Program-made: the position numbers and the translations under genes
Shown: positions 3,224 to 13,742 of the stretch, in pieces
How positions within the stretch are numbered: position 1 is the stretch's first letter
Layout: every line of letters begins with the position of its first letter
NCBI GenBank assembly: GCA_902557145.1
Contig: CACDYZ010000009.1
Coordinates: 1 to 52,519 of the forward strand
Direction: 5' to 3'
Source of the DNA: an uncultured Alphaproteobacteria bacterium
GTDB lineage: Bacteria > Pseudomonadota > Alphaproteobacteria > HIMB59
DNA length: 52,519 bases
The notes under the pieces: generated by a model
Told to the model about the DNA's origin: nothing
What the model saw: only the letters and a program-made list of their open reading frames with translations
The model's database searches: none

Positions 3224-3901
3224 GTGGAAAAACCTACCATTCAACTCCCTGAAACATGGCTTAATCATTTAAAAGATGAGTTTGACCAAGACTATATGGT
3301 CAATCTCAAAAAAAAACTTTTAGAATTAAAACAAAACAAAATTGTTTACTATCCTCCAGGAAGACAAATTTTTAATGCTTTTAATTTAACGCCTCTAAAT
3401 AATGTAAAAGTAGTTATTTTAGGTCAAGATCCCTATCATGGCCCTGGTCAAGCTCACGGACTTAGTTTTTCTGTCCCAGACTCTGTCAAACCTCCGCCCT
3501 CTCTTATAAATATTTATAAAGAATTACAGGATGATTTAAAAAAAGAAGTTAATTTTAATAATGGCAACCTAGAAAATTGGGCCAAACAGGGTGTATTTTT
3601 GTTAAATACAACATTAACGGTGGAGAGATCAAAACCCCTTTCACATCAGAAAATTGGCTGGGATATTTTTACTAATAAAGTCATTTCTGTAATTAGTAAT
3701 GAATTAGAAAATATCGTTTTCATATTGTGGGGATCATTTGCTCAATCAAAAAAAGAGTATATTGATTCGAGTAAACATCTAATTTTAATTGCACCTCATC
3801 CATCTCCTTTATCCGCTCATCGCGGTTTTTTTGGAAGCAAACCTTTTTCTAAGACAAATGCCTTTCTTAAATCAAAACAAATTGATATGGTTGAGTGGTA
3901 A
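3224..3901 (+). CDS. ung: Uracil-DNA glycosylase, family 1
   Basis: The 225-aa enzyme removes uracil from DNA to start base-excision repair. Motif A GQDPYHGPGQAHGLSFSV (residues about 67-84) carries the catalytic Asp and the uracil-binding Tyr. Later comes NTTLTV with the uracil-selective Asn, and near the end HPSPLSAHRGF, the DNA-intercalation loop with the catalytic His. These are the complete family 1 set, and the length is normal. The start codon is GTG at 3224; no better in-frame start lies downstream before motif A. Confidence 0.95.
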   Translation: MEKPTIQLPETWLNHLKDEFDQDYMVNLKKKLLELKQNKIVYYPPGRQIFNAFNLTPLNNVKVVILGQDPYHGPGQAHGLSFSVPDSVKPPPSLINIYKELQDDLKKEVNFNNGNLENWAKQGVFLLNTTLTVERSKPLSHQKIGWDIFTNKVISVISNELENIVFILWGSFAQSKKEYIDSSKHLILIAPHPSPLSAHRGFFGSKPFSKTNAFLKSKQIDMVEW

Positions 3902-4317
3902 TGAAGTCTAACGTTGAAAATTTTGTTGGTTTTGTAGAAAAAGCAGTAATTGGTGTCATTTTAGTAGCTACGATAACTGCCATTCTCTTTGAAATACTGA
4001 GAATGATAGACGTACAATATGTAGAATTAGCTGATTTACTTCTATTATTTATCTACGTTGAGGTAATCGGAATGGTAAGAGTTTATTATGTGTCTAATCG
4101 AGTGAGAATGACTTATCCCTTATTTATTGCTATTACCGCTTTATCAAGACTTATTATACTTCAAGGTAAAGACTCAAATCCTGAACTTCTTTTATACGAA
4201 GCTGGTGCCATAGTCTTAGTAGCTATTGCAGTCATAATTCTTCGACTAAGATATGTACCGATACTTCGTCCTGTAGAAGATGTCGATGAAATTAAACCTA
4301 GAAATATAAAAAAGTAA
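3901..4317 (+). CDS. PsiE-family (phosphate-starvation-inducible) membrane protein
   Basis: The protein of about 138 aa starts at ATG 3901, which overlaps the ung stop (TAATG); an in-frame GTG two codons earlier is less likely. Four hydrophobic segments are visible: KAVIGVILVATITAILFEIL, LADLLLLFIYVEVIGMV, PLFIAITALSRLIIL and AGAIVLVAIAVIILRL. The pattern FIYVEV and the PLFIAITAL..R region are those of the PsiE family, which is linked to phosphate starvation in E. coli with no known biochemical activity. It is translationally coupled to ung. Confidence 0.8.
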   Translation: MKSNVENFVGFVEKAVIGVILVATITAILFEILRMIDVQYVELADLLLLFIYVEVIGMVRVYYVSNRVRMTYPLFIAITALSRLIILQGKDSNPELLLYEAGAIVLVAIAVIILRLRYVPILRPVEDVDEIKPRNIKK

Positions 4318-4322
4318 TAACA

Positions 4323-5303
4323 TTGAAAAAGATAGCAGTTATTGGAACTGGGCTTAGTGCGCTTTCTTTAGCCTACCACCTACCTGCTCTGGATATAACT
4401 TTTTTTGAAAAATCTTGGAGGCCTGGGGGTAGAATAAGTACTAGAAAGCATAATCAATATGCTTTCGATCATGGCGCACATTATTTAAAATTAGATCATG
4501 GTATTATAGGTCTTAATGAATACTTAAATAAAATTGATGCGATTAAAATTTTAAAAGGGCAATTTTGTTCAAATATTTCACAAAATTCACCCATTGAAGA
4601 TAAAGAAATTATAGTGGGGAAAGAGGGGAATGAATCAATTCCAATTAACATTCATAAATCACTTCACTATCCAACTTATTTTTCAAAGCAAATAACTAGT
4701 ATTGAGACTATAAATAAGGAATATTATCTAATTGCAGGTGAAGAGAAATTTGGACCATTTGATTATATTTTTTGCAGCATGCCATTTGAACAGTCTAAGA
4801 CGCTATTAGAAAAATATATCGATTATAGTGACATGCCTGACATCGAGTTTGATGCTATTTGGACCATCATGGTGGCATTTAATAAGCGACTTGGTGTTCC
4901 ATTTCAATTTGGATATCACTTAACACCAGAAATAAGTTTCTTAATGAACCAGAATTTTAAACATGAATTTTTTAATGAGGAGTGCTGGGTTATAAATATG
5001 AGAGCAGAGTGGACTAAAGAATATTATAATATAGAAAACTATGTGCTCGAAGATTATGTGATTAATAAGATGAAACAGTCTTTTCAATCTGATGCTGGTG
5101 CAGTATTTAAAAAATCACACAGATGGAGGTATTCTTATACTAAAAAAAGTTTAAGGGATATTAAGTCAAAAAGATATATTGGGTCTATTGATCGTCGTTT
5201 GTATTCCTTTGGTGACTGGTGTGAAGGTCCAAGTATGCAAGATGCTTGGCTTTCAGGTAAAAAATTAGCTCAGGACTTTACAGAAAATAGCCTAAAACAT
5301 TAG
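4323..5303 (+). CDS. Renalase-like FAD-dependent oxidoreductase
   Basis: The 326-aa protein starts at TTG 4323, 5 nt after the PsiE-like gene. N-terminal IAVIGTGLSALSLAYHL is a dinucleotide-binding Rossmann motif, followed by FFEKSWRPGGRISTR, the R-x-G-G-R motif of amine-oxidase/renalase-type flavoproteins, and FDHGAHYL. The C-terminal YSFGDWCEGPSMQDAWLSG gives the second FAD-contact region. This fits bacterial renalase-like NAD(P)/FAD proteins of about 320 aa; the actual substrate (dihydronicotinamide isomers, amines) cannot be decided. Confidence 0.82.
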   Translation: MKKIAVIGTGLSALSLAYHLPALDITFFEKSWRPGGRISTRKHNQYAFDHGAHYLKLDHGIIGLNEYLNKIDAIKILKGQFCSNISQNSPIEDKEIIVGKEGNESIPINIHKSLHYPTYFSKQITSIETINKEYYLIAGEEKFGPFDYIFCSMPFEQSKTLLEKYIDYSDMPDIEFDAIWTIMVAFNKRLGVPFQFGYHLTPEISFLMNQNFKHEFFNEECWVINMRAEWTKEYYNIENYVLEDYVINKMKQSFQSDAGAVFKKSHRWRYSYTKKSLRDIKSKRYIGSIDRRLYSFGDWCEGPSMQDAWLSGKKLAQDFTENSLKH

Positions 5304-5321
5304 TGTTTATATGAATTTTGC

Positions 5322-5347
5322 CTCAGCTAATGTTGCTGAGAATTTTT
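5322..5347 (+). terminator. Rho-independent terminator after the FAD oxidoreductase gene
   Basis: CTCAGC (5322-5327) pairs with GCTGAG (5335-5340) around a 7-nt loop and is followed by AATTTTTATT. It lies 18 nt after the plus-strand stop and overlaps the last codons of the opposing small gene. Confidence 0.6.
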
Positions 5348-5542
5348 ATTATAAATTTTTTTCCAATTCAAATAGTCATTATCATTTAGCATAAATCTCA
5401 TCAGATTTTTTACGTCATTTTTATCAATTCTATACTGGGTATTGATTGCGCCATAGGGGATCTCATCGTTATGAGCTAAAAATTTTATATGATCTAACTC
5501 ATATGGAGTTAAATATTTCATTAAACTATGAATACTGGACAT
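5327..5542 (-). CDS. DUF2805-like small protein
   Basis: The 71-aa protein contains LTPYELDHIKFLAHNDEIPY and later NDVKNLMRFMLNDNDYLNWKK. This layout matches the TIGR03643/DUF2805 family, which is common in marine bacteria and looks like a helix-turn-helix-like all-helical fold. Function is unknown. The ATG is at 5542. It stands alone, and its 3' end overlaps the terminator of the facing gene. Confidence 0.62.
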   Translation of the reverse strand: MSSIHSLMKYLTPYELDHIKFLAHNDEIPYGAINTQYRIDKNDVKNLMRFMLNDNDYLNWKKIYNKNSQQH

Positions 5543-5644
5543 AAGAAAAAATTATATAAAAAGAATAGAATTGTCTAGTGACTCAAATATTTGCCGCCAA
5601 AATTAATTAAATAATCTTTTTTCTGAATTGTGTTACAAATAAAT

Positions 5645-5863
5645 TTAAAATACTTTTATATTTGAACCAAAGTTTCCATTATTTACAAGAAACATAAAAA
5701 ACACAAAACTTCCCAGAAATACAAATACAGATAAAATTGAAATAATTTTATAGTAGAGTTTTTTAGATTTACTTAACTCATCTCCATCAATAGCTATATA
5801 ATTACCAACAAAATAAGAGACAATAAAGATTGCTATAAATGCCAATATAAAACTAATATTCAT
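5645..5863 (-). CDS. Small two-helix membrane protein, unknown
   Basis: A 72-aa protein with two strong hydrophobic stretches (FILAFIAIFIVSYFVGNYI and ISILSVFVFLGSFVFFMFLV) separated by a short Lys/Asp-rich loop. No family recognised. It ends 102 nt from the DUF2805-like gene and starts 20 nt after the stop of the next small membrane gene; both are on the minus strand and may be co-transcribed. Confidence 0.5.
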   Translation of the reverse strand: MNISFILAFIAIFIVSYFVGNYIAIDGDELSKSKKLYYKIISILSVFVFLGSFVFFMFLVNNGNFGSNIKVF

Positions 5864-5883
5864 AATTCTAAATTTTTAACTGA

Positions 5884-6081
5884 TTAATCCATAAAAACAA
5901 CATATCCAAATGCCACAATTATCATACAGTATATAAATAGCGTCTGTTTATTATTGATCCTTTTGTTTAGTCTTATTTTTTTTTGATCAATTAGATAAAT
6001 AAGTAAGAAGTAAAGAGGTACGCCCCATAGGTTGATGAGAATATGTGCCCATATGGGCATTTCGATAAATTTATCTAACAT
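5884..6081 (-). CDS. Small two-helix membrane protein, unknown
   Basis: A 65-aa protein with two hydrophobic segments (AHILINLWGVPLYFLLIYLI and LFIYCMIIVAFGYVVF) joined by a basic loop (DQKKIRLNKRINNK), consistent with a cytoplasmic loop and both ends outside. No family recognised. It is divergent from the secreted-protein gene at 6123. Confidence 0.5.
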   Translation of the reverse strand: MLDKFIEMPIWAHILINLWGVPLYFLLIYLIDQKKIRLNKRINNKQTLFIYCMIIVAFGYVVFMD

Positions 6082-6122
6082 TTATTATTTTTAAAGTATC
6101 ATTATTGTTATAAAAAAAACTT

Positions 6123-6482
6123 ATGAAATTTATAATTTTATTCATTCTTACATTTACTTTTTGTGTTCAGGCACAATCTGATGAACTGATTTGTAATAAG
6201 ATATTTAATGAAATTACTGAAAAATCTCCCATTAAAAATACCTCTCCAAGTGTCATTGAATTAGAAATTAAAGATAATATTCTGAAATCTTTCATTTGGG
6301 ACTCACAAAAAATTGAAATGCATTTTGAAATACTTTTTGATCATGATTTTGACTTAAAAATTGGATCCAAAGGCTATTCAGACATAAATAATGCAGTTTT
6401 TTTTGAATTAGACAAAGATGATGGATATTTGTATCAATATTTAAAAAGTGGTGTGAGCTACAAATGTTCAGCTAGTAAATGA
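6123..6482 (+). CDS. Small secreted protein, unknown function
   Basis: The 119-aa protein begins with a clear signal peptide (MKFIILFILTFTFCVQAQS, likely cleavage after AQS or AQA-type site). The mature part has two Cys (ELIC near residue 24, SYKCSASK at the end) that could form one disulfide, and a beta-rich composition (EIKDNILKSFIW, MHFEILFD). No family recognised. It resembles in style the secreted proteins of the island at 10-12 kb but lacks their shared motif. Confidence 0.55.
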   Translation: MKFIILFILTFTFCVQAQSDELICNKIFNEITEKSPIKNTSPSVIELEIKDNILKSFIWDSQKIEMHFEILFDHDFDLKIGSKGYSDINNAVFFELDKDDGYLYQYLKSGVSYKCSASK

Positions 6483-6502
6483 AAATTTGAGACGTAAAAA
6501 TT

Positions 6503-6898
6503 TTATAAAGTATTAAATGCTAATAAATCATCTAATTTATCACAATTACCATAAAAAGTTGTTTTTACACTAGTACTATTAGGGAAAAAAATATTTCTCT
6601 CATAACGATAGATATTTTTATAAAGGATTAATGTATTAAAAGAAAAATCAGTCTCAATTCTAAAATGATAACTCACTTTATCCTCTCCCATGTAGTCATA
6701 ATTTAAATCTTGATAACTCTCTTTAAGAAAAGATAATTCTTTATTAAAAGTATATTTAAATTCACTGATATTAGACTCTTCAAAATTTATAAATTTATCA
6801 TCAACATAATCAATTAAGGAATTTTCTTCACATATTAATTTAATATTTTTGCCAAATACTAGTGAAGGAATAAATATTAAAATATAAATTAGCTTCAT
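6503..6898 (-). CDS. Small secreted protein, unknown function
   Basis: The 131-aa protein has a signal peptide (MKLIYILIFIPSLVFGKNI) and a mature region with two Cys (LICEENS and GNCDKLDDLLAF). The layout of signal peptide, IKLICEENS, beta-rich middle and C-terminal Cys loosely parallels the island secreted proteins, but the GTE motif is absent. It ends 20 nt from the convergent gene at 6123-6482 and starts 2 nt after the stop of the upstream 95-aa gene, so the two are probably co-transcribed. Confidence 0.55.
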   Translation of the reverse strand: MKLIYILIFIPSLVFGKNIKLICEENSLIDYVDDKFINFEESNISEFKYTFNKELSFLKESYQDLNYDYMGEDKVSYHFRIETDFSFNTLILYKNIYRYERNIFFPNSTSVKTTFYGNCDKLDDLLAFNTL

Positions 6899-6900
6899 AG

Positions 6901-7188
6901 TTAATCCATTATACTTGCTTTAAATCCATACTCAGAGATAGCTTTTTTTCGAAAAAATCCTTCAATTTTAATCATTGTCATAAAGTCATTGGCACATTTA
7001 AGAAGAGCTTTGAATGGCTTTGCAGATCCCTTGCAGCTTACGTCTTTTCCATTTGCGTCATGAGTTTCACCGCAGGCACAGGTGTATTTAATAGACCCGT
7101 AACCATTAAGTCTAAGTAAGTGGGCTGCTTGTAAAGGGTTGTTTTTTAGTTTTTCTCTAACTTCAGCTTTGCTGGTTAATATCTCCAT
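6901..7188 (-). CDS. Small Cys-containing protein, unknown function
   Basis: A 95-aa soluble protein. It contains IKYTCACGETHDANG..VSCKGSAKPFKALLKC, with four Cys in about 35 residues (C-x-C ... C ... C), which may bind a metal ion. The N-terminal part (EVREKLKNNPLQAAHLLRL) is helical. No family recognised. It sits 18 nt downstream of a possible 28-aa membrane microprotein. Confidence 0.55.
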   Translation of the reverse strand: MEILTSKAEVREKLKNNPLQAAHLLRLNGYGSIKYTCACGETHDANGKDVSCKGSAKPFKALLKCANDFMTMIKIEGFFRKKAISEYGFKASIMD

Positions 7189-7206
7189 TTAGGATATTGA
7201 TTTTAT

Positions 7207-7293
7207 TTAATCCCCTCTCATTATCCACATAAAAAATGTGGCTAAGAGAATAAGAGATATAGTCAAATCTATCCAAAGAGTTCCAGTGAACAT
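7207..7293 (-). CDS. Possible 28-aa single-span membrane microprotein
   Basis: ATG at 7293, stop at 7207-7209. The peptide MFTGTLWIDLTISLILLATF runs into FMWIMRGD: one hydrophobic helix with a short charged end. It lies in the otherwise empty gap between two minus-strand genes, 6 nt after one and 18 nt before the next, which is operon-like spacing. The evidence is only the open frame, spacing and hydrophobicity. Confidence 0.3.
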   Translation of the reverse strand: MFTGTLWIDLTISLILLATFFMWIMRGD

Positions 7294-7299
7294 ATAATT

Positions 7300-7491
7300 T
7301 TAATTCTCACTTGGAAGGGCATTTTCTTCTCTCATCAAGATGGGTCTACCGTCATGCGCTGTATTTAGAGGGATAATTTTACCCTGATATCTGACACACA
7401 GAGTGGGAGCATTTCTTACTTCGTCTCCTAAATTAACCTCTAAATCAACAATGATTAATTCTGCGCTATCCAGTATTTTCAATATTTTCAT
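7300..7491 (-). CDS. Small beta-rich protein, unknown function
   Basis: A 63-aa soluble protein: MKILKILDSAELIIVDLEVN followed by APTLCVRYQGKIIPLNTAHD. It looks like a small beta-sheet protein with a single Cys. No family recognised. It is the first gene of a likely minus-strand group ending at 6503; the gap to the Cys-rich gene at 7586 is about 95 nt. Confidence 0.45.
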   Translation of the reverse strand: MKILKILDSAELIIVDLEVNLGDEVRNAPTLCVRYQGKIIPLNTAHDGRPILMREENALPSEN

Positions 7492-7585
7492 AAATTTAGT
7501 TCTCCAATACTACTTTTTATGTTCAAAGTAATATTTAGATCTTACCTAGATAATTTAAGGATATATAATGGCTTAAAAGTACTGA

Positions 7586-7771
7586 CTAATTTTCTACGCA
7601 GACATCTTTAATAACTGGTGTATTAGTGCATTCAACACATTTAGTAATTTGAACTACACATCCATCAGCTAGCTGAGATACTTCAACCTCTTTGTTACAT
7701 TTAGAACAAATTGATGAAACAGATAAGTCACACTTTGGGCATGATATTGTTTGTAAATTTTCCATTGCCAT
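7586..7771 (-). CDS. Small zinc-ribbon-like protein
   Basis: A 61-aa protein (59 aa if the second ATG at 7765 is used) with three CxxC pairs: CPKC (about 11-14), CSKC (about 22-25) and CVEC (about 45-48), plus a late single Cys. This spacing is typical of a zinc ribbon or rubredoxin-like knuckle. Function is unknown. It is divergent from the DUF985 cupin with a 136-nt AT-rich gap that must hold both promoters. Confidence 0.55.
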   Translation of the reverse strand: MAMENLQTISCPKCDLSVSSICSKCNKEVEVSQLADGCVVQITKCVECTNTPVIKDVCVEN

Positions 7772-7907
7772 TTTTACTGTTATAATACATTTTTAGATGA
7801 AAAATGAAATACATTCCTAAAAAGTAAAAAAAGATAATAAATACAATGTTTTTATATAACTATTTTTAATTTTATGGAATAAATCTAAGAATATACCCAT
7901 TAAATAG

Positions 7908-8315
7908 ATGAACTTAGTAAAATCACTTATTGAAAATCATAATATGATACCCCACCCAGAGGGAGGGCATTTCGTCGAAGTCTATAAAAATAAGGATGTT
8001 AGTCACATATATTTTTTGCTAGAGGAACATGAACATTCCCATTGGCATCGAATAACCAAAAACGAAACAATACACTTTTATACAGGAAGCCCCTTGAATA
8101 TATTTACATCAAAAAATGGTGAGGAATTTGAGATAAATACAATTGGATCTCAAAATAAGTATATGTTCACTATTGAAAAGAATACTTGGTTTGCAATGAA
8201 ATCAACTGGATCGTTTAGTTTAATTGGATGTACAGTAGCCCCAGCATTTGAATTTGAGGATTTAGAGCTTGCCCCAAAAAATTGGAAGCCGACAAAATTT
8301 AATCAGGAATTATGA
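7908..8315 (+). CDS. Cupin of the DUF985 family
   Basis: The 135-aa protein carries HPEGGHFVEVYK near the start and SHIYFLLEEHEHSHWHRITKNE in the middle (quoted in part: EHSHWHRI), the metal-binding cupin motif of DUF985. The FYTGSPLNIF and VAPAFEFEDLELA segments near the end are also characteristic. The fold is known from structural genomics; no reaction is established. The start is ATG at 7908 and the length is usual or slightly short. Confidence 0.85.
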   Translation: MNLVKSLIENHNMIPHPEGGHFVEVYKNKDVSHIYFLLEEHEHSHWHRITKNETIHFYTGSPLNIFTSKNGEEFEINTIGSQNKYMFTIEKNTWFAMKSTGSFSLIGCTVAPAFEFEDLELAPKNWKPTKFNQEL

Positions 8316-8330
8316 TAGAAAGATTATAGA

Positions 8331-8519
8331 TTGAACGCTGAATTCATTGTAAATACATTTTGGTTTCTTTCAATATTCACAGCAGCGATTTACATATTAA
8401 AAAAGAGGTATGTTAAGAAAAAAGAGTTTTCTTTGATTAATAAAGTTTTCAAATTAAGTTTATCTTTAACAATAATATTTTGTGTTATTAGTTTATATAT
8501 TATGCTTACAAATTATTAA
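8331..8519 (+). CDS. Small two-helix membrane protein, unknown
   Basis: A 62-aa open frame starting with TTG at 8331, 15 nt after the cupin. It has two hydrophobic stretches (NTFWFLSIFTAAIYIL and FKLSLSLTIIFCVISLYIM) separated by a strongly basic loop (KKRYVKKKEF). No family recognised. Spacing suggests co-transcription with the cupin. Confidence 0.42.
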   Translation: MNAEFIVNTFWFLSIFTAAIYILKKRYVKKKEFSLINKVFKLSLSLTIIFCVISLYIMLTNY

Positions 8520-8563
8520 AATAATTGCTAATCAAAAATTATTATGATCAATTTTTTACAATT

Positions 8564-8833
8564 CTACTCCTCCAAGACAATTACTTCTTGAGATTCAAAA
8601 TCAACACCAGCATTTGATCTTAGATTTTCAATTTCTGGATCTTTAATAGCCTCTTGCATTTTCTCCATCGATTCGACTTCAATAACTTGGTAAACCTTAT
8701 TTTCATCACCCTTAGGATGACCCCAAGCTAAAACTTTCAAGCCATGTTTATCTCTTAAAGCATCTGCGCTGACAAAAGCATCTCTCCACTTTGGGTAGCC
8801 CTCTGTTATTTTTGCACTTATAATTATTTTCAT
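8564..8833 (-). CDS. Small alpha/beta-barrel-like protein (DUF3764-like), unknown function
   Basis: An 89-aa soluble protein. The pattern is a first strand (MKIIISAKI), then WRDAFVSADALRDKHGLKVL, DENKVYQVIEVESMEKMQEA and GVDFESQEVIVL. It matches the dimeric ferredoxin-like fold of DUF3764/ABM-type proteins. The start ATG is preceded by a strong ribosome-binding site, AGGAGGAG. No pathway context; it is the last gene before the tRNA-Ala island. Confidence 0.6.
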   Translation of the reverse strand: MKIIISAKITEGYPKWRDAFVSADALRDKHGLKVLAWGHPKGDENKVYQVIEVESMEKMQEAIKDPEIENLRSNAGVDFESQEVIVLEE

Positions 8834-8881
8834 ATTCTCCTCCTAAAATTTTAATTTAACATATAAAAAAAGGTACATACA

Positions 8882-8897
8882 CCCCCATGAATGGGGG
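8882..8897. other. Perfect short inverted repeat
   Basis: CCCCCAT followed by GA and ATGGGGG forms a 7-bp hairpin with a 2-nt loop between the 89-aa gene and the tRNA half. It lacks a T-tract on either strand, so it is not an ordinary intrinsic terminator. Confidence 0.35.
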
Positions 8898-8930
8898 CAT
8901 CACAAAGGTATCACAACTAATAAAAAATTA

Positions 8931-8959
8931 TTGTTTCAACTACCTTGCTATACTAGTAT
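8931..8959 (+). promoter_or_regulatory. Candidate original promoter of the interrupted tRNA-Ala
   Basis: TTGTTT (8931-8936) and TAGTAT (8954-8959) are separated by 17 nt and would start RNA about 35 nt before the tRNA half at 9001. It would now make only a truncated tRNA. Inference from consensus only. Confidence 0.3.
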
Positions 8960-9000
8960 CTCTATTGAAAAATTGTTGAGAATAAATGCTTAAACAATAG

Positions 9001-9041
9001 GGGGCCATAGCTCAGCTGGGAGAGCGCTACGCTGGCAGCGT
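9001..9041 (+). repeat. 5' half of tRNA-Ala(GGC), left attachment site (att) of the island
   Basis: The 41 nt are identical to the first 41 nt of the complete tRNA-Ala at 13667-13707: acceptor strand, D arm, anticodon loop and the first three bases of the 3' anticodon stem. After base 9041 the sequence leaves the tRNA completely. The copies are in the same orientation. This is the outer scar of a site-specific integration in the anticodon-loop region. Confidence 0.88.
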
Positions 9042-9114
9042 TTCGGATTAATTCTGTAAATTAAATTATCTAATATTATCAATCTTTTTTTTATTTATTT
9101 TTTCATAGTTTTAA

Positions 9115-9261
9115 AAATTCTTTAAGAAAAACGTCGGTGAAGCATCGGTTGATTTTATAGCAAATGATGAAGTTGAACTTGATCCATCAATTATCTCTAT
9201 AGACCACCTTACTGTTATAAAGTCTGGAATTAGTGAGTTTAAAAAAACTGAACTGAACTAA
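9115..9261 (+). pseudogene. Possible gene remnant at the left island end
   Basis: An open frame of 48 codons without any usual start codon ends at TAA 9259-9261. Its composition is protein-like (VGEASVDFIANDEVELD, then SIISIDHLTVIKSG and FKKTELN), unlike the surrounding AT-rich spacer, and it overlaps the left ACGTCGGT repeats. It may be the 3' end of a gene lost by deletion or replaced on integration. No family recognised. Confidence 0.28.
9131..9149 (+). repeat. Left pair of short direct repeats (candidate integrase arm sites)
   Basis: ACGTCGGT (9131-9138) and GCATCGGT (9142-9149) are spaced 11 nt start to start. The flanks (TTCTTTAAGAAAA before, TGATTTTA after) resemble those of the right-hand pair at 13593-13611. 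The 11-bp period places both on one DNA face, as expected for integrase arm-type sites. Confidence 0.5.
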
Positions 9262-9343
9262 CCTTGTGTGTGTTGTTGGGGTCTAGTTCTCTTACTCATA
9301 TCTTTCTCGGCCCCTAACCTATAATTATCAGGGTTTTTAAATT

Positions 9344-10492
9344 TTATTCGTCCACTAATTTGTAAAATCTATTCCATACAACGCTAGTAATTTTACCTAC
9401 GTCTCTAATACTTTTATTCTTTTTTAGTAAATCTAGTTTTTTTTGAATCTCTTCAGTTATTAAAAAAATGAATATTTCAGAGTCTTTAGATTTCATATCT
9501 ACTACGATTCTACCTAATTTTGAGTTAGATGAATTAATATAGATATTATCTCCCTTAGATGAGTTATCTTCTCTAAATAGTGGTTGTAAATTTGAATAAT
9601 GAAAAGCAACCTTTTGAACATCAATATCTTTAATATCAAAATTAATATGAAAATAGTTTAAGGGAATAATATGGTCTATATCCCATAATTTTCTATTATC
9701 CCAAGACATACCTTTTTGAAATTTCTTTTCTAAATACTCTTTTAAAAAAAATGGATCACATCCAACTAATTCTTGTGTAAAAGTTTGTTTTTTAACAGAA
9801 GCGGGTCTTAAAAAATCTCTAACCCTAGTTGCCAATCTAACCATCATTTGTTTTTCTGGAATTGATTTAATTTTAAGACTTCGTCTTTTTTCTATTGCCT
9901 TACCCTTATCAGTTTTTCTAAATAATCTATTACGATTTTTGATCTCCTCTTTATTTTCTTGATAATACTTTTTAGAAAAAACCCTTTGCTTTCTATTAAT
10001 CTCTTCTCTATTTTCTTCTCTATAAATTTTATCTCGTTTTAAAATTTCATCTTTATTTTTTTCATACCATTGTTTACTTTTTTCTTTGATTGATTCCTTA
10101 TTATTTTCTCTGTAAGCCCAGATTTTGTCTTGATTATTTTCACGCCATTTCTTTCCATCTTCTTTAATTTTTTCTTTGTTGGATTCACGATAAGCTTTAT
10201 AATAAGCCTTTAGTTTTTCTTCATTGGCTTCTCGGTAAGCCTTATTATAAGCTCTCTTTTCTTCTACATTCTTTCCCTTATTAGCGTCATTCCATTTTTT
10301 AGAGAGAGCATTTCTCTTTTCTTTATTTTCTTGATGATAGACTCTTCTTTTTTCTTTTATTTTTTCTAAATTGTTTTCTATATATAGTTTCTGGTAAGCC
10401 CTTCTTTTAGCTTTTGTTTCTTCATTGTCTTTATTAGCTAAGTAATATTTTCTTCTATAAGCTTTTGCTTTTTCTGGATCTTTATATGCCAT
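9344..10492 (-). CDS. Repeat-rich HNH endonuclease-like protein
   Basis: The 382-aa protein has two parts. Residues about 8-205 are a highly charged helical region made of a dozen or so imperfect 13-17-residue repeats of the type YRExNKEKIKE. Residues about 245-315 form an HNH/His-Me-like nuclease: WDIDHIIPL (D271, D273, H274), then HYSNLQPLFREDN (N301) and SSKG (K313), the DH...N...K pattern of phage-type HNH enzymes. The C-terminus (IRDVGKITSVVWNRFYK) could be a small DNA-binding helix pair. Proteins like this occur in phages and mobile elements. It is the last gene of the island's minus-strand row. Roles in self-mobility, defence or DNA processing are possible. Confidence 0.75.
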   Translation of the reverse strand: MAYKDPEKAKAYRRKYYLANKDNEETKAKRRAYQKLYIENNLEKIKEKRRVYHQENKEKRNALSKKWNDANKGKNVEEKRAYNKAYREANEEKLKAYYKAYRESNKEKIKEDGKKWRENNQDKIWAYRENNKESIKEKSKQWYEKNKDEILKRDKIYREENREEINRKQRVFSKKYYQENKEEIKNRNRLFRKTDKGKAIEKRRSLKIKSIPEKQMMVRLATRVRDFLRPASVKKQTFTQELVGCDPFFLKEYLEKKFQKGMSWDNRKLWDIDHIIPLNYFHINFDIKDIDVQKVAFHYSNLQPLFREDNSSKGDNIYINSSNSKLGRIVVDMKSKDSEIFIFLITEEIQKKLDLLKKNKSIRDVGKITSVVWNRFYKLVDE

Positions 10493-10538: not shown

Positions 10539-10952
10539 TTACCTATTAGTACAAACAACATTGGGGTGCTTTGCGGTTCCATAATTACGACAGTATTGAG
10601 TTGGTTGATAATATTTTCCTGAACCAGTAAGTGAGTCTAAAAAGTTACCAAAAGCATCCATTCTTCTTCGAAAATCTTCCTTCTCATCTCTTTTCTTTTG
10701 GTATTCAAATTGCTCTTTAAGAAGTTTGTTTTGGGTGGCTAAACTACTATTACTATTACTATTGCTAGAACTATTGTTTGCAGATTGTTGTTCTATTCCT
10801 TTTTCTTTTTTAAAAAAATCCATAACACATTCAGCAAAATCTTCTGTACCTGCAGTAAAGCCAATATCAGAACATACTTTTTTATGTGGTTCTAAATCAT
10901 TAGCATTCAGTAAAATGGGACAAAGTAAGAGTATTAATAGTAACTTTTTCAT
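10539..10952 (-). CDS. Small secreted protein with N-proximal GTE motif
   Basis: The 137-aa protein starts at ATG 10952, overlapping the upstream stop (TAATG); a TTG 21 nt earlier is less likely. It has a signal peptide (MKKLLLILLLCPILLNAND), then KVCSDIGFTAGTEDFAECV, a version of the motif that ends the three upstream genes, then an Asn/Ser linker (NNSSSNSNSNSS), a charged coiled coil (LLKEQFEYQKKRDEKEDFRRR) and a Cys-containing tail (YCRNYG..NVVCTNR). Short lipoprotein-like or periplasmic proteins with CxxIGFxxGT..F..CV are common in marine Alphaproteobacteria; function is unknown. Confidence 0.62.
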   Translation of the reverse strand: MKKLLLILLLCPILLNANDLEPHKKVCSDIGFTAGTEDFAECVMDFFKKEKGIEQQSANNSSSNSNSNSSLATQNKLLKEQFEYQKKRDEKEDFRRRMDAFGNFLDSLTGSGKYYQPTQYCRNYGTAKHPNVVCTNR

Positions 10953-11022
10953 TAGCTTAATTCTAACACACAATTTTTAAGGCCTTCTGTACCTTTTTTA
11001 AATCCCAAATCTAAGCATTGAT
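10951..11022 (-). repeat. 72-nt coding repeat, copy A
   Basis: It encodes the last 22 residues, stop codon and following ATG of the 10952-11413 gene. It differs from copy B (11412-11483) at three positions and from copy C (11882-11953) at four. Each copy joins one gene's end to the next gene's start. Confidence 0.85.
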
Positions 11023-11413
11023 CTATTTTGTAACTAGGTTCTTTTTGTTTTAAGAAGATTTGATACTCAGGTTCTGTAATGCAATACCAATAAATAACTC
11101 CAATATCCATATAATGATACATTTTATTAGTTTTGGAATTAAAAACAAATTTTACATCAGGGTCAACTGGTTCAGGAAACCCAGTTGCCTCATAAATATC
11201 ACCATCTTTAGTATAGGATACTGTATCTCCCTTTTTGAAAGTTTTATTAGTATGGTTTAATTCAAAATAATAAATATATGGAACTTTACTAGGATCTTCA
11301 TGTTTAGACATCCCTGTAGCAGTCAACATTCCTTCATTTTTACAGTAATACTTTTCTACATTTCCCCAACTCAAACTCGGGATAAATAGTAATACTGTTA
11401 AAAATATTTTCAT
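10952..11413 (-). CDS. Small secreted protein with C-terminal GTE motif (array member 3)
   Basis: The 153-aa protein has a signal peptide (MKIFLTVLLFIPSLSWGNV), a mature domain with Cys in YYCKNEG and WYCITEPEY, the array-typical ELNHTNKTFKKGD, and the C-terminal motif CLDLGFKKGTEGLKNCV. The start ATG overlaps the upstream stop (TAATG), and its own stop overlaps the next ATG, so translation is coupled through the array. The body differs strongly from its neighbours while the last 22 residues are identical to them. No known family for the body. Confidence 0.65.
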   Translation of the reverse strand: MKIFLTVLLFIPSLSWGNVEKYYCKNEGMLTATGMSKHEDPSKVPYIYYFELNHTNKTFKKGDTVSYTKDGDIYEATGFPEPVDPDVKFVFNSKTNKMYHYMDIGVIYWYCITEPEYQIFLKQKEPSYKIDQCLDLGFKKGTEGLKNCVLELS

Positions 11414-11483
11414 TAGCTTAATTCTAACACACAGTTTTTAAGGCCTTCTGTTCCCTTTTTAAATCCCAAATCTAAGCATTGAT
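11412..11483 (-). repeat. 72-nt coding repeat, copy B
   Basis: It encodes the identical C-terminal 22 residues and stop of the 11413-11904 gene plus the ATG of the next gene. It differs from copy A by three substitutions, all inside the coding part. Confidence 0.85.
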
Positions 11484-11904
11484 TTATTAAATCATTGTTA
11501 TCTTTAGAAGACTCAAGTTTGCAATGAAATTCTACAATTGTTACTGGATCAAACCACATCCACGTTTTTCTAATTGGATTTTCATTAAGAAAAAAATTTC
11601 TCTCTTGTAAACCTGAGGAACTCTCTCTTGATATAGATAAAACCTGCCCATTATTTTTTGTAGAAAAGTTATGTTCAAAGCTAAATTTATCTGGATTTGG
11701 AAAACCATAAAATTGTTTAACAGTTCCTTTACTATGATTAAATATATATTTTCTATTGCCAAACATTGCATCTACAGCTTTGCCGTCAATAGTTGCTTTT
11801 ACATTTTCGCAAAAATATGTGCTTTCAATATTCCCCCAACTCAATGTTGGAAAAAACACAAACAATAAAAAAAGTTTACTAATTAGCTTAATTCTAATAC
11901 ACAA
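11413..11904 (-). CDS. Small secreted protein with C-terminal GTE motif (array member 2), start codon altered
   Basis: The mature body (YFCENVKATIDGK ... RKYIFNHSKGT ... VEFHCKLESS) is followed by the same C-terminal motif as its neighbours. The only in-frame conventional start is TTG at 11904, inside the upstream gene. At the position where the sister genes have ATG (TAATG overlap) this gene has ATT (11881-11883), so it either uses ATT or the upstream TTG. From the ATT the sequence is a normal signal peptide (SKLFLLFVFFPTLSWGNI). The true length is therefore 156 or 163 aa. Confidence 0.58.
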   Translation of the reverse strand: MCIRIKLISKLFLLFVFFPTLSWGNIESTYFCENVKATIDGKAVDAMFGNRKYIFNHSKGTVKQFYGFPNPDKFSFEHNFSTKNNGQVLSISRESSSGLQERNFFLNENPIRKTWMWFDPVTIVEFHCKLESSKDNNDLINQCLDLGFKKGTEGLKNCVLELS

Positions 11905-11953
11905 TTTTTAAGACCTTCTGTACCTTTTTTAAATCCTAAATCTAAACATTGAT
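11882..11953 (-). repeat. 72-nt coding repeat, copy C
   Basis: It encodes the C-terminal 22 residues and stop of the 11883-12368 gene. It has four substitutions relative to copy A, and the base just outside turns the following ATG into ATT. Confidence 0.85.
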
Positions 11954-12368
11954 TTACTGTATCAATCGGCTCTTTTTCTTTAAAGATACTTTTATATTTA
12001 GCTTCTGGAATGCACTTATCTACAAAAGTAATATCAGAATGTTTACTAAAATGAGCTATGATACTAGTATCATCTTTACTTTGTATAATTTCTGATTTTA
12101 CTAATTCATCCTCTACAATATAAGAAGTTCCTTTTTTTTTAAATGTAATGGCTTCGTCGAGTAAAATACCTGTATCCGTACTAAAAGTGACAAAGGTTTT
12201 GTTGGAATGATTTAGCTCATAAAAAGTTGGGTATGGATCTTCTTTACTGTATTCATATGTAGTTGTTACACCATCCTCTGTCGTCATCCATAAATAACAG
12301 TAATGCCTTTCAATATTCCCCGCCCAACTCAAAATAGGTAATAACAATAGAGCTAAGAGGGTTTTCAT
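11883..12368 (-). CDS. Small secreted protein with C-terminal GTE motif (array member 1)
   Basis: The 161-aa protein is the first of the array; ATG at 12368. It has a signal peptide (MKTLLALLLLPILSWAGNI), HYCYLWM, FYELNHSNKTFVTF, DKCIPEAKYK and the shared C-terminus CLDLGFKKGTEGLKNCV. The ELNHSNKTF segment shows that array members share an ancestor beyond the C-terminal tag. It starts 3 nt after the stop of the zinc-ribbon microprotein, implying one transcript. Confidence 0.65.
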   Translation of the reverse strand: MKTLLALLLLPILSWAGNIERHYCYLWMTTEDGVTTTYEYSKEDPYPTFYELNHSNKTFVTFSTDTGILLDEAITFKKKGTSYIVEDELVKSEIIQSKDDTSIIAHFSKHSDITFVDKCIPEAKYKSIFKEKEPIDTVNQCLDLGFKKGTEGLKNCVLELS

Positions 12369-12371
12369 ACA

Positions 12372-12551
12372 TTAATGATAGCCAACATAATCAATGTTCT
12401 CAATATAGATTTCTCTTCTACAGTCTAAGCAAATATGAACCTCAATATGTTTCCATTTCTCTAAAACATCTGAAGCTTCACCACATTTCTCACATTTTCT
12501 TTGTTGTGGTTTTAACTCTTTCTCATCAAATTCACCGTTCCACCAACCCAT
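12372..12551 (-). CDS. Zinc-ribbon microprotein (59 aa)
   Basis: ATG at 12551, stop at 12372-12374. It begins MGWWNGEFDEKELKPQQRKC and contains KCEKCGEASDVLEKW followed by HICLDCRREIY, so two CxxC pairs about 25 residues apart, a classic zinc-ribbon layout. It lies between the integrase and the secreted array, 3 nt before the array and 32 nt after the integrase stop. It could be the island's small DNA-binding regulator or excisionase substitute; that is inference. Confidence 0.6.
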   Translation of the reverse strand: MGWWNGEFDEKELKPQQRKCEKCGEASDVLEKWKHIEVHICLDCRREIYIENIDYVGYH

Positions 12552-12583: not shown

Positions 12584-13567
12584 CTATCTGGTCCCTAATA
12601 AAGTTGTGGATTGAAATTTTTGATCTTTCAATACGTTCTGTGGTTTCATATGACAGTATCTTAATAGTAATCTTAAATCTCTATGACCACTAATTATTTG
12701 TAACTGCATAGGGGATAGACCCATCTCACCAAACTGGGTTAATGCGTAATGTCTTAAATCATGCATACGTAAGTTCTTGATCCCCCATTTCTTAACAAAC
12801 TTTTCCCACTCCCTACGTACATATCTAGCCGTAAACCCCCACTCCAAAGATTTATATAAAATATCTCTAGCAATATTTGTTAGTGGTATAATTCTTTGAT
12901 AACCATTCTTAGTATTCTCTTTTGGTAGAGTTAATAATCTGTTTTCAAAATCCACATGTTCTTTTTTGATCTGTAAACACTCCCCACGTCTCACTCCAGT
13001 TTCCATTAATACAATTACAAAATCTTTAATTGGATAGTCTTGTGTAGTAATAGTTATAACTTCATCTTTAGTTAGAACTCTATCTCTTGCATTATTGAAA
13101 GTAGGCCTTCTTAATCTAGTTAATGGATTATCCATACGATAACCCCAGTCTTTAATAGCCACGTTAAACATACAAGATACAACATCCATTTCTCTTTTGA
13201 ATGTAGATGGTTTCACTTCTTCCAATCTTTTATCCCGATATTGTGTAAAGTGGATAGTATCTAAATCAGCTAATTTACTTTTGGAATATCTAAATTTTCT
13301 TATAAAAGCTTTAAGTATTCTCTCATCATTAGCCCTATTACCTTTACGTCTTAAATATTCTTTAACAAATAATTCTCCAAGATTTTCTAAATTAATACGC
13401 TTAACTATTGTGTAGTCTCTTGAAGTATTAACTAATCTATTTTCTATTTCGGTTTTCTTAATCCAACTTTCTGCATCTTTTCTACTGACAAAGTTTTTTC
13501 TATGTATGACTGAATTAACTTGAACCTTGGCTTCATAAAGTTCATTTCGTCTTCTGTATATTCCCAT
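12584..13567 (-). CDS. Tyrosine site-specific recombinase (integrase)
   Basis: The 327-aa protein has an N-terminal arm-binding-like region (MGIYRRRNELYEAKV; residues 1-50), a helical core-binding domain (about 55-155) and a catalytic domain. Catalytic residues visible are R193 in ETGVRRGE, H269-x-x-R272 in MHDLRHYALT, H295 in ISGHRDLRL and the nucleophile Y304 in RYCHM. This is a complete active-site set, so the enzyme is probably functional. It lies 100 nt from the intact tRNA-Ala, as expected for the integrase of an element inserted there. ATG at 13567 just beside the right ACGTCGGT repeats, so autoregulation by binding is plausible. Confidence 0.92.
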   Translation of the reverse strand: MGIYRRRNELYEAKVQVNSVIHRKNFVSRKDAESWIKKTEIENRLVNTSRDYTIVKRINLENLGELFVKEYLRRKGNRANDERILKAFIRKFRYSKSKLADLDTIHFTQYRDKRLEEVKPSTFKREMDVVSCMFNVAIKDWGYRMDNPLTRLRRPTFNNARDRVLTKDEVITITTQDYPIKDFVIVLMETGVRRGECLQIKKEHVDFENRLLTLPKENTKNGYQRIIPLTNIARDILYKSLEWGFTARYVRREWEKFVKKWGIKNLRMHDLRHYALTQFGEMGLSPMQLQIISGHRDLRLLLRYCHMKPQNVLKDQKFQSTTLLGTR

Positions 13568-13592
13568 TTAAAATTACCTTTCTTTCTTAAAA

Positions 13593-13611
13593 ACGTCGGT
13601 AAAACGTCGGT
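13593..13611 (+). repeat. Right pair of short direct repeats (candidate integrase arm sites)
   Basis: Two exact ACGTCGGT copies (13593-13600, 13604-13611), 11 nt apart, between the integrase start and the tRNA. The wider block (about 13580-13617) resembles the left block at about 9118-9158. Confidence 0.55.
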
Positions 13612-13619
13612 AATTTTAT

Positions 13620-13647
13620 TTGTGATTAACTCCCAATGTTCTATTAT
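13620..13647 (+). promoter_or_regulatory. Candidate promoter of the intact tRNA-Ala, carried by the island
   Basis: TTGTGA (13620-13625) and TATTAT (13642-13647) are 16 nt apart and followed by a GC-rich GCCC, as in stable-RNA promoter discriminators. RNA would start about 12 nt before the tRNA. The sequence lies inside the island, so the element would supply both promoter and 5' half. Confidence 0.4.
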
Positions 13648-13666
13648 GCCCTACTATCAACGGCAT

Positions 13667-13742
13667 GGGGCCATAGCTCAGCTGGGAGAGCGCTACGCTG
13701 GCAGCGTAGAGGTCAGGGGTTCGATCCCCCTTGGCTCCACCA
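13667..13742 (+). tRNA. tRNA-Ala (GGC anticodon)
   Basis: The 76 nt fold as a full cloverleaf. The acceptor GGGGCCA pairs with TGGCTCC and includes the G3:U70 wobble that defines alanine tRNAs. The anticodon stem CTACG/CGTAG encloses loop CTGGCAG with anticodon GGC; the T arm contains GGTTCGATC. Discriminator A and an encoded CCA end at 13742. The 5' 41 nt are duplicated at 9001-9041. This is the reconstituted copy, whose 3' half belongs to the original chromosome. Confidence 0.96.

Follow-up and report, generated by a model that had tools for sequence, protein, structure and literature searches.

Exported-protein genes with shared ends in a small tRNA-borne island of a HIMB59 marine bacterium, and a signal-peptide DNA block common to many differing genes of its genus

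Why should consecutive genes for exported proteins keep almost the same DNA at their ends when their middles have diverged? The question is raised by four genes, here called A to D, in a stretch of 52,519 nucleotides that was analysed as a whole and is referred to as the window. The original prediction described a modular, exported, fast-diverging family with constant ends on a mobile island, and the att repeats, integrase and empty sites reported below bear this out. In the present study, we consider it probable, with a likelihood of roughly two in three for the explanation as a whole, that tRNA-borne elements exchange the bodies of exported proteins behind a constant in-frame signal-peptide module. 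The HIMB59 (AEGEAN-169) lineage would then possess many small elements at tRNA genes with genes for Sec-exported proteins as their cargo, and the array would belong to one of them.

Regarding the array itself, all four genes are encoded on the reverse strand, and the exported proteins B (10952-11413), C (11413-11904) and D (11883-12368) all end in the same 22 residues (QCLDLGFKKGTEGLKNCVLELS), as had been claimed. These tags are encoded at 10955-11020, 11416-11481 and 11886-11951, respectively, and the three to four differences previously given for their DNA are correct for B and C (3) and for B and D (4), but not for C and D (7). The seven variable columns of the tag are all synonymous (P about 1e-5 were the changes random), which indicates purifying selection on the tag peptide. 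The repeat was also described as running from the tag through the stop codon into the next start, and it does so from C to B and from B to A, whereas the copy in D is followed by ATTAGT, so that the start codon of C is uncertain, being either a TTG inside D or a non-ATG codon (ATT). The fourth gene, A (10539-10949), encodes an exported protein with a variant of the tag motif (CSDIGFTAGTEDFAEC, 10827-10874, reverse strand) directly after the signal peptide, in agreement with the N-terminal position ascribed to it, followed by a Q/N-rich coiled-coil-like region. The four copies in the window are the only ones of the motif in this genome. Comparisons of B, C and D with Pfam and NCBIfam revealed no family match and no sorting-domain model, and searches of the window cargo against Pfam, NCBIfam and PHROGs returned nothing useful.

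The simplest history for such an array is ordinary tandem duplication, in which B, C and D are paralogues with a fast-evolving middle and with the tag and signal peptide as the most constrained parts. Their bodies had been regarded as strongly diverged, which holds for C, whereas those of B and D are clearly homologous after removal of head and tag (alignment score z = 11.9, about 31% identity) and thus partly represent one paralogous family; simple tandem duplication therefore explains part of the array, and the exclusively synonymous changes in the tag are what purifying selection predicts under this history. The body of C is at most weakly related to the others (z = 2.2 to B and 0.5 to D, also without head and tag), which is not expected among such paralogues. 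The divergence of tag and body, which the original prediction had set against each other, differs at the synonymous sites of B and D, which are saturated in the bodies (pS 0.86) and unsaturated in the tag (pS 0.32), such that the ends look younger than the middles. Moreover, the DNA of the head, namely, the 5' end that encodes the signal peptide, also stands in relatives before bodies of polysaccharide lyases, alginate lyases, a hydrolase and FG-GAP proteins, which do not form one paralogous family. Plain paralogy in which the ends are constrained can account for B and D but does not explain the genus-wide head described below, and we regard it as an unlikely explanation of the whole.

The array lies within a 4.67-kb island that is inserted in tRNA-Ala(GGC). 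The intact tRNA gene (13667-13742, forward strand, detected by ARAGORN) forms one border, and a displaced 41-nt 5' fragment of it at the other (9001-9041, forward strand) is an exact copy of 13667-13707. A tyrosine integrase (12584-13567, reverse strand; Pfam PF00589, E 7e-19; PHROG 1, E 2e-42) adjoins the tRNA, and its relatives at 34-38% identity are found in tRNA-linked regions of three genomes (G051, G003 and G029). When the outer flanks are joined across the island, they match contiguously in two genomes, at 94% over 175 nt in G010 and at 96% over 177 nt in G015, which represent empty sites. The island is suggested to have entered tRNA-Ala(GGC) by integrase-mediated recombination across the 5' half of this gene, as part of the explanation that we prefer. 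Near its two ends, a subterminal repeat (9118-9149, forward strand, ending in ACGTCGGTGAAGCATCGGT) and its partner (13580-13611, forward strand, AACGTCGGTAAAACGTCGGT) share 81% identity and are candidate arm sites for the integrase; positions 13601-13649, which overlap the latter, are kept upstream of tRNA-Ala in a further genome (G014).

Besides the array and the integrase, the island carries two other genes on the reverse strand. One (9344-10492) encodes an HNH or endonuclease VII-like protein (PHROG 1035, endonuclease VII, E 4e-4; weak Pfam HNH match) with a long, repetitive N-terminal region rich in Lys, Glu and Asn, and positions 9537-9793 of its DNA share 72% identity with a gene in a tRNA-Met element of G037. 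That element (L093, G037:C11, about 3256-9800) also carries an integrase. The other gene, Z (12372-12551), encodes a 59-aa zinc-ribbon-like protein and lies 3 nt upstream of D; copies at 90-100% identity occur in G013, G038, G034 and G026 on contigs near a gene with the signal-peptide module. In one of the genomes with an empty site (L095, G010:C2, 7672-10608), 3' of this tRNA-Ala, a motif-bearing lipoprotein gene stands beside a polysaccharide-lyase-like gene with the signal-peptide module, and no att repeat was detectable there.

A search for relatives of B returned many matches that were confined to the signal peptide. These matches trace to a DNA block of approximately 50 nt, which encodes the signal peptide MKTLLALLLLIPSLSWG and is near-identical among relatives (ATGAAAACCCTCTTAGCTCTATTGTTATTAATCCCTAGTTTGAGTTGGGG). 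The relatives belong to the HIMB59 (AEGEAN-169) lineage, and the single-cell genome AG-891-G06, which bears the module, has been listed as HIMB59 (PMC10734472). Within the genus, 62 copies were counted in 31 of the 52 genomes with the 3' part of the module allowing 3 mismatches, against none with a reversed control. A related exact pattern matched 36 stretches across approximately 85,000 species, 33 of which are titled Alphaproteobacteria or 'Pelagibacteraceae' single-cell genomes and one more is an alphaproteobacterial MAG, while the other two, from Companilactobacillus and Saprospiraceae, are isolated; the pattern was not found in viral contigs. An assembly artefact was considered and rejected because the module opens ORFs in frame in many independent single-cell genomes, the core flanks of which are intact, as well as in one independent MAG.

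The 60 bodies behind the module fall into 28 BLASTP clusters, the representatives of which share 84% DNA identity over the 51-nt head, but only 32% over the 40 nt before and the 19 nt after it. The module is sharply bordered by the ATG at one side and by the signal-peptidase site at the other. Codon choice within it is fixed position by position; for example, codon 4 is CTC in 21 of the 28 representatives, although CTC accounts for 5% of Leu codons, whereas the core gene dhaK of two module-bearing species uses the same codon at only 32% of shared Leu residues. It follows that the DNA block itself, and not the peptide alone, is shared by descent. Head distances are equal within and between genomes (0.177 and 0.183), which implies that the module has been mixed across the genus; no concerted evolution of the head within genomes was seen and, since the variants do not cluster by genome, there is no direct sign of recent intragenomic conversion. 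The cassette border of the original prediction therefore needs to be moved: constant end pieces exist, but the more widespread one is the head and not the tail.

The window itself is a peripheral member of this system, because no module copy within 3 mismatches exists in its genome, the variant in D contains an indel and the heads of B and C are more diverged from the module than that of D. In D (12318-12368, reverse strand), the first 30 nt are identical to the HIMB59 consensus module and are followed by the small indel, while the head of B (11364-11413, reverse strand) is a diverged relative that matches module copies elsewhere at about 75-84% DNA identity.

The module is linked to tRNA genes. 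A tRNA gene was located within 5 kb at all 15 head loci of six genomes, for which at most 25% was expected (P about 7e-10), and several head loci sit between an intact tRNA and its displaced fragment with no integrase among the ORFs. The integrase-less mini-islands in which the module is often found span 1.2-2.7 kb: tRNA-Arg harbours units of 1.27 and 1.3 kb, and the others are a tandem pair measuring 1.2 and 1.4 kb, a 2.3-kb unit with three head genes, a 2.3-kb unit at tRNA-Gly and a 2.7-kb unit at tRNA-Asp. Allelic turnover is seen at one tRNA-Arg site, where the core flanks are 95-97% identical between genomes and the cargo differs, and where the shared sequence stops close to the final base of the head. 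Bare head remnants without a body also occur, one of which continues into 19 nt of the start of a tRNA-Ala.

Considering its DNA-level conservation and sharp ends, the block may be viewed as a site-specific recombination site of an integron-like kind, read by an integrase and encoding a signal peptide only incidentally, and the bare remnants as well as the module copies that flank cargo as direct repeats in G040 are in line with this concept. We nevertheless consider it very improbable. The module contains no hairpin or inverted repeat and folds no better than its shuffles (z about +1.1 to +1.3), it is found in sense orientation as the start of an ORF, and no recombinase common to the head loci was found.

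Further elements were observed at tRNA genes. Next to tRNA-Thr on contig 1 of AG-917-M08 (L129/L138, about 7.8-9.1 kb), a pair of cargo genes lies between two directly oriented bare modules, each of which has a GTGTAATTTCTGTACAC repeat nearby. Within a tRNA-Asp island (L128), a pair of 45-nt direct repeats (CAAATTTGATGAATTTAATGCGAAATTAAT, 1748-1792 and 3272-3316) is nested and flanks a dienelactone-hydrolase-like head gene. Two 6.1-kb elements with related integrases (L088, 5115-11278; L089, 6368-12563) lie between two complete copies of tRNA-Gly, and an additional 53-nt tRNA fragment is present at 5188-5240 of the latter. An 8.9-kb tRNA-Arg(TCT) element (L096, G013:C4, 5165-14095), the integrase of which differs from that in the window, carries two genes with the signal-peptide module, excisionase-like and replication-like genes (recognised by eye) and a zinc-ribbon protein identical to Z.

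Regarding the bodies, Pfam recognised polysaccharide lyases (5), alginate lyases (2), FG-GAP proteins (2), a dienelactone hydrolase (1) and a MORN protein (1) among the representatives. The toxins or surface decoys that had been proposed are not what these recognisable sister bodies suggest, and a PADLOC search of the module proteins gave no convincing match to a defence family. Many small bodies contain one early and one late cysteine, and may constitute one fast-diverging family that BLASTP cannot join. For one such body, a small beta barrel was modelled (pLDDT 65), the PDB neighbours of which include 5hal (Z 9.7), avidins (Z 8.4), Brucella PliC (Z 7.9) and PhiA (Z 7.7); these scores are too close together for a function to be assigned, and a viral-structure search of the same body gave no match at E <= 0.001. 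The comparison with PliC/MliC, which concerns this sister body only, thus leaves PliC tied with the avidins. Overall, the variable bodies are likely to serve envelope or extracellular functions under fast turnover, as glycan lyases in some islands and as small cysteine-paired beta proteins in others.

These data bear on the possibility that the island is a phage satellite, PICMI- or tycheposon-like, the exported proteins of which act in the envelope as anti-phage or superinfection-exclusion factors, such as lysozyme-inhibitor-like beta barrels. Its small size, tRNA att site, integrase and HNH gene would suit a satellite, as would the excisionase-like and replication-like genes of the sister island L096 and the resemblance of the barrel to the peptidoglycan-hydrolase inhibitors PliC and PhiA. 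However, no AlpA, primase or capsid gene was detected among the ORFs of the window island with Pfam, NCBIfam and PHROGs, and relatives of the cargo in viruses were not found: B has none in IMG/VR and one weak, irrelevant match among phage genomes, and relatives of the integrase were also not found in IMG/VR. Many sister bodies are glycan lyases, and PADLOC gave no convincing defence match. PliC scores no higher than avidins and other barrels, and a Z near 8 may reflect a common fold only. We consider this origin possible but rather unlikely.

The tag motif, C-x3-GF-x2-GT-x5-C, is also found beyond the window. It is rare within the genus (4 of 52 genomes). In a sample of 240 genomes from the class, 28 contained it, compared with 10 for a control pattern that was out of frame by one base. 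On reading of the translations, roughly 15 occurrences look genuine, and encode short exported proteins or lipoproteins that are otherwise unrelated. The window and these alphaproteobacterial proteins have in common the motif, its spacing, the exported context and a placement near either terminus; elsewhere, however, the motif occurs in single genes, whereas the window has three protein-identical copies as a C-terminal tag in one operon. In those proteins, it directly follows the signal, lies mid-protein or precedes the C-terminus by 6-18 residues, which does not accord with the preferentially C-terminal location for which a test had been proposed. A dedicated C-terminal sorting or anchoring signal is also not supported, as no sorting domain of Pfam or NCBIfam was found, and the curated LPXTG, PEP-CTERM and Por-type models did not match B, C or D. 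No family in Pfam, NCBIfam or PHROG covers the motif; it is a widespread exported module, still without a name, for which a family model would be worthwhile.

The model of D, although of low confidence (pLDDT 53), shows a beta body and a C-terminal helical hairpin (135-148/150-160), in which the tag region reaches a pLDDT of about 73-75 and the cysteines at 141 and 156 are distributed one per helix. On this model, the tag is probably a helical hairpin closed by a disulfide that the two cysteines would form. The PDB neighbours of the D model (up to Z 5.4) come from a model too poor to interpret. The tag may also be a partner-binding domain that joins B, C and D to protein A in a periplasmic complex. 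In one genome (L091, G045), a 1.2-kb unit at tRNA-Arg consists only of a tagged gene, with a signal peptide of its own that differs from the module, and an A-like gene downstream, which is the order of B and A in the window; this recurrence as a two-gene mini-island, together with the presence of the motif in both partners and purifying selection on the tag protein sequence, is consistent with binding. Since the motif is also found in single lipoproteins without a partner, we consider such a complex possible but rather unlikely.

Returning to the explanation that we prefer, the exchange of bodies behind the module, the constant 5' piece would be the signal-peptide DNA block of approximately 50 nt, present genus-wide on many unrelated bodies, and the constant 3' piece would be the tag, added only locally in this island. 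Near-identical short DNA ends most likely anchor homologous or short-homology recombination, and a crossover inside the head would yield a product that is still in frame and exported. Bodies could therefore be replaced, duplicated or lost with the export signal always intact and in frame, and integrase-bearing islands may also act in trans to move those mini-islands that have tRNA fragments at their ends but no integrase. The products of the cargo are presumed to act outside the cytoplasm. The island with its att and empty sites, the conservation of the tag, and the module with its borders, tRNA linkage and allelic turnover are observed, whereas we infer the recombination mechanism, the mobilisation in trans, the disulfide and the biological role. 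We know of no recombinase that acts at the module, which counts against an exchange of bodies, as does the possibility that some of the body clusters are a single fast-diverging family, and excision was not seen for any element. In a bolder form, the block would be the recombination anchor of a genus-wide 'signal-peptide cassette' system at tRNA sites, in which integrase-less mini-islands add new bodies to a secretion signal that stays in frame; we advance this form tentatively, at clearly less than even odds.

Few mobile elements are generally attributed to streamlined ocean bacteria. If the exchange of bodies is correct, an abundant marine clade would diversify its exported proteins in a compact manner at tRNA sites while keeping the export signal constant, and a cassette system in the bolder sense would amount to a natural device by which a streamlined ocean bacterium shuffles the domains of its secretome. 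Owing to its constancy, the head DNA provides a ready-made probe for fast-changing exported genes in metagenomes, which makes the drivers of secretome turnover in open-ocean bacteria directly testable.

Compared with known systems, tRNA islands, integrase-less att-flanked elements and signal sequences shared by variable secreted proteins are each known. Their combination, together with a signal-peptide block that is conserved as DNA and confined to a single marine clade, was not encountered in the literature searched, nor was a relevant paper on a signal peptide shared by unrelated island proteins; the search was incomplete, and this is weak evidence of novelty. Integron gene cassettes are not supported as a model, as an attC-type hairpin is absent and the module does not fold better than shuffles. 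The defining genes of the PICMI satellites of Vibrionaceae encode an integrase, AlpA, a primase and Fis, and their site is fis (PMC10803314). They resemble the present elements as very small marine islands with an integrase and accessory cargo, but the window island has only the integrase of this set and its site is tRNA-Ala, not fis.

In the mobile, sequence-variable mosaics of phytoplasmas, a conserved signal sequence is common to differing secreted proteins. Their SVM signal family (PMC3743221, PMC8401217) gave no match at E <= 0.01 when 35 proteins, from the window or with the module, were scanned with Pfam. The bacteria are unrelated and, in contrast to the mosaics, conservation here is at the DNA level, with sharp borders and at tRNA sites. 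CIME-type elements are flanked by att sites, have no integrase and share a single tRNA or tmRNA site as tandem copies. Such elements and islands mobilised in trans (PMC5704250), and the ssrA islands of Dehalococcoides (PMC3146451), have been described. The present units differ from CIMEs in their size, down to 1.2 kb with 1-3 genes, and in often starting with the same DNA-conserved signal peptide.

The closest setting is that of tRNA-borne integrative islands, or tycheposons, of Prochlorococcus and Methylophilaceae (PMC10872708, citing Hackl et al., 2023). On the part of that account used here, duplication of a tRNA att site, a tyrosine recombinase, variable cargo and streamlined marine hosts are shared features, whereas the window island is only 4.7 kb, carries exported-protein cargo with shared ends and recombined over the 5' part of the tRNA, and other islands of the present set are entirely without an integrase. 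The tRNA border and tyrosine recombinase of tycheposons are both present in the window island, which, like tRNA-integrated islands in general, has a direct repeat of part of the tRNA at both ends, a restored tRNA, an integrase and an empty site in relatives.
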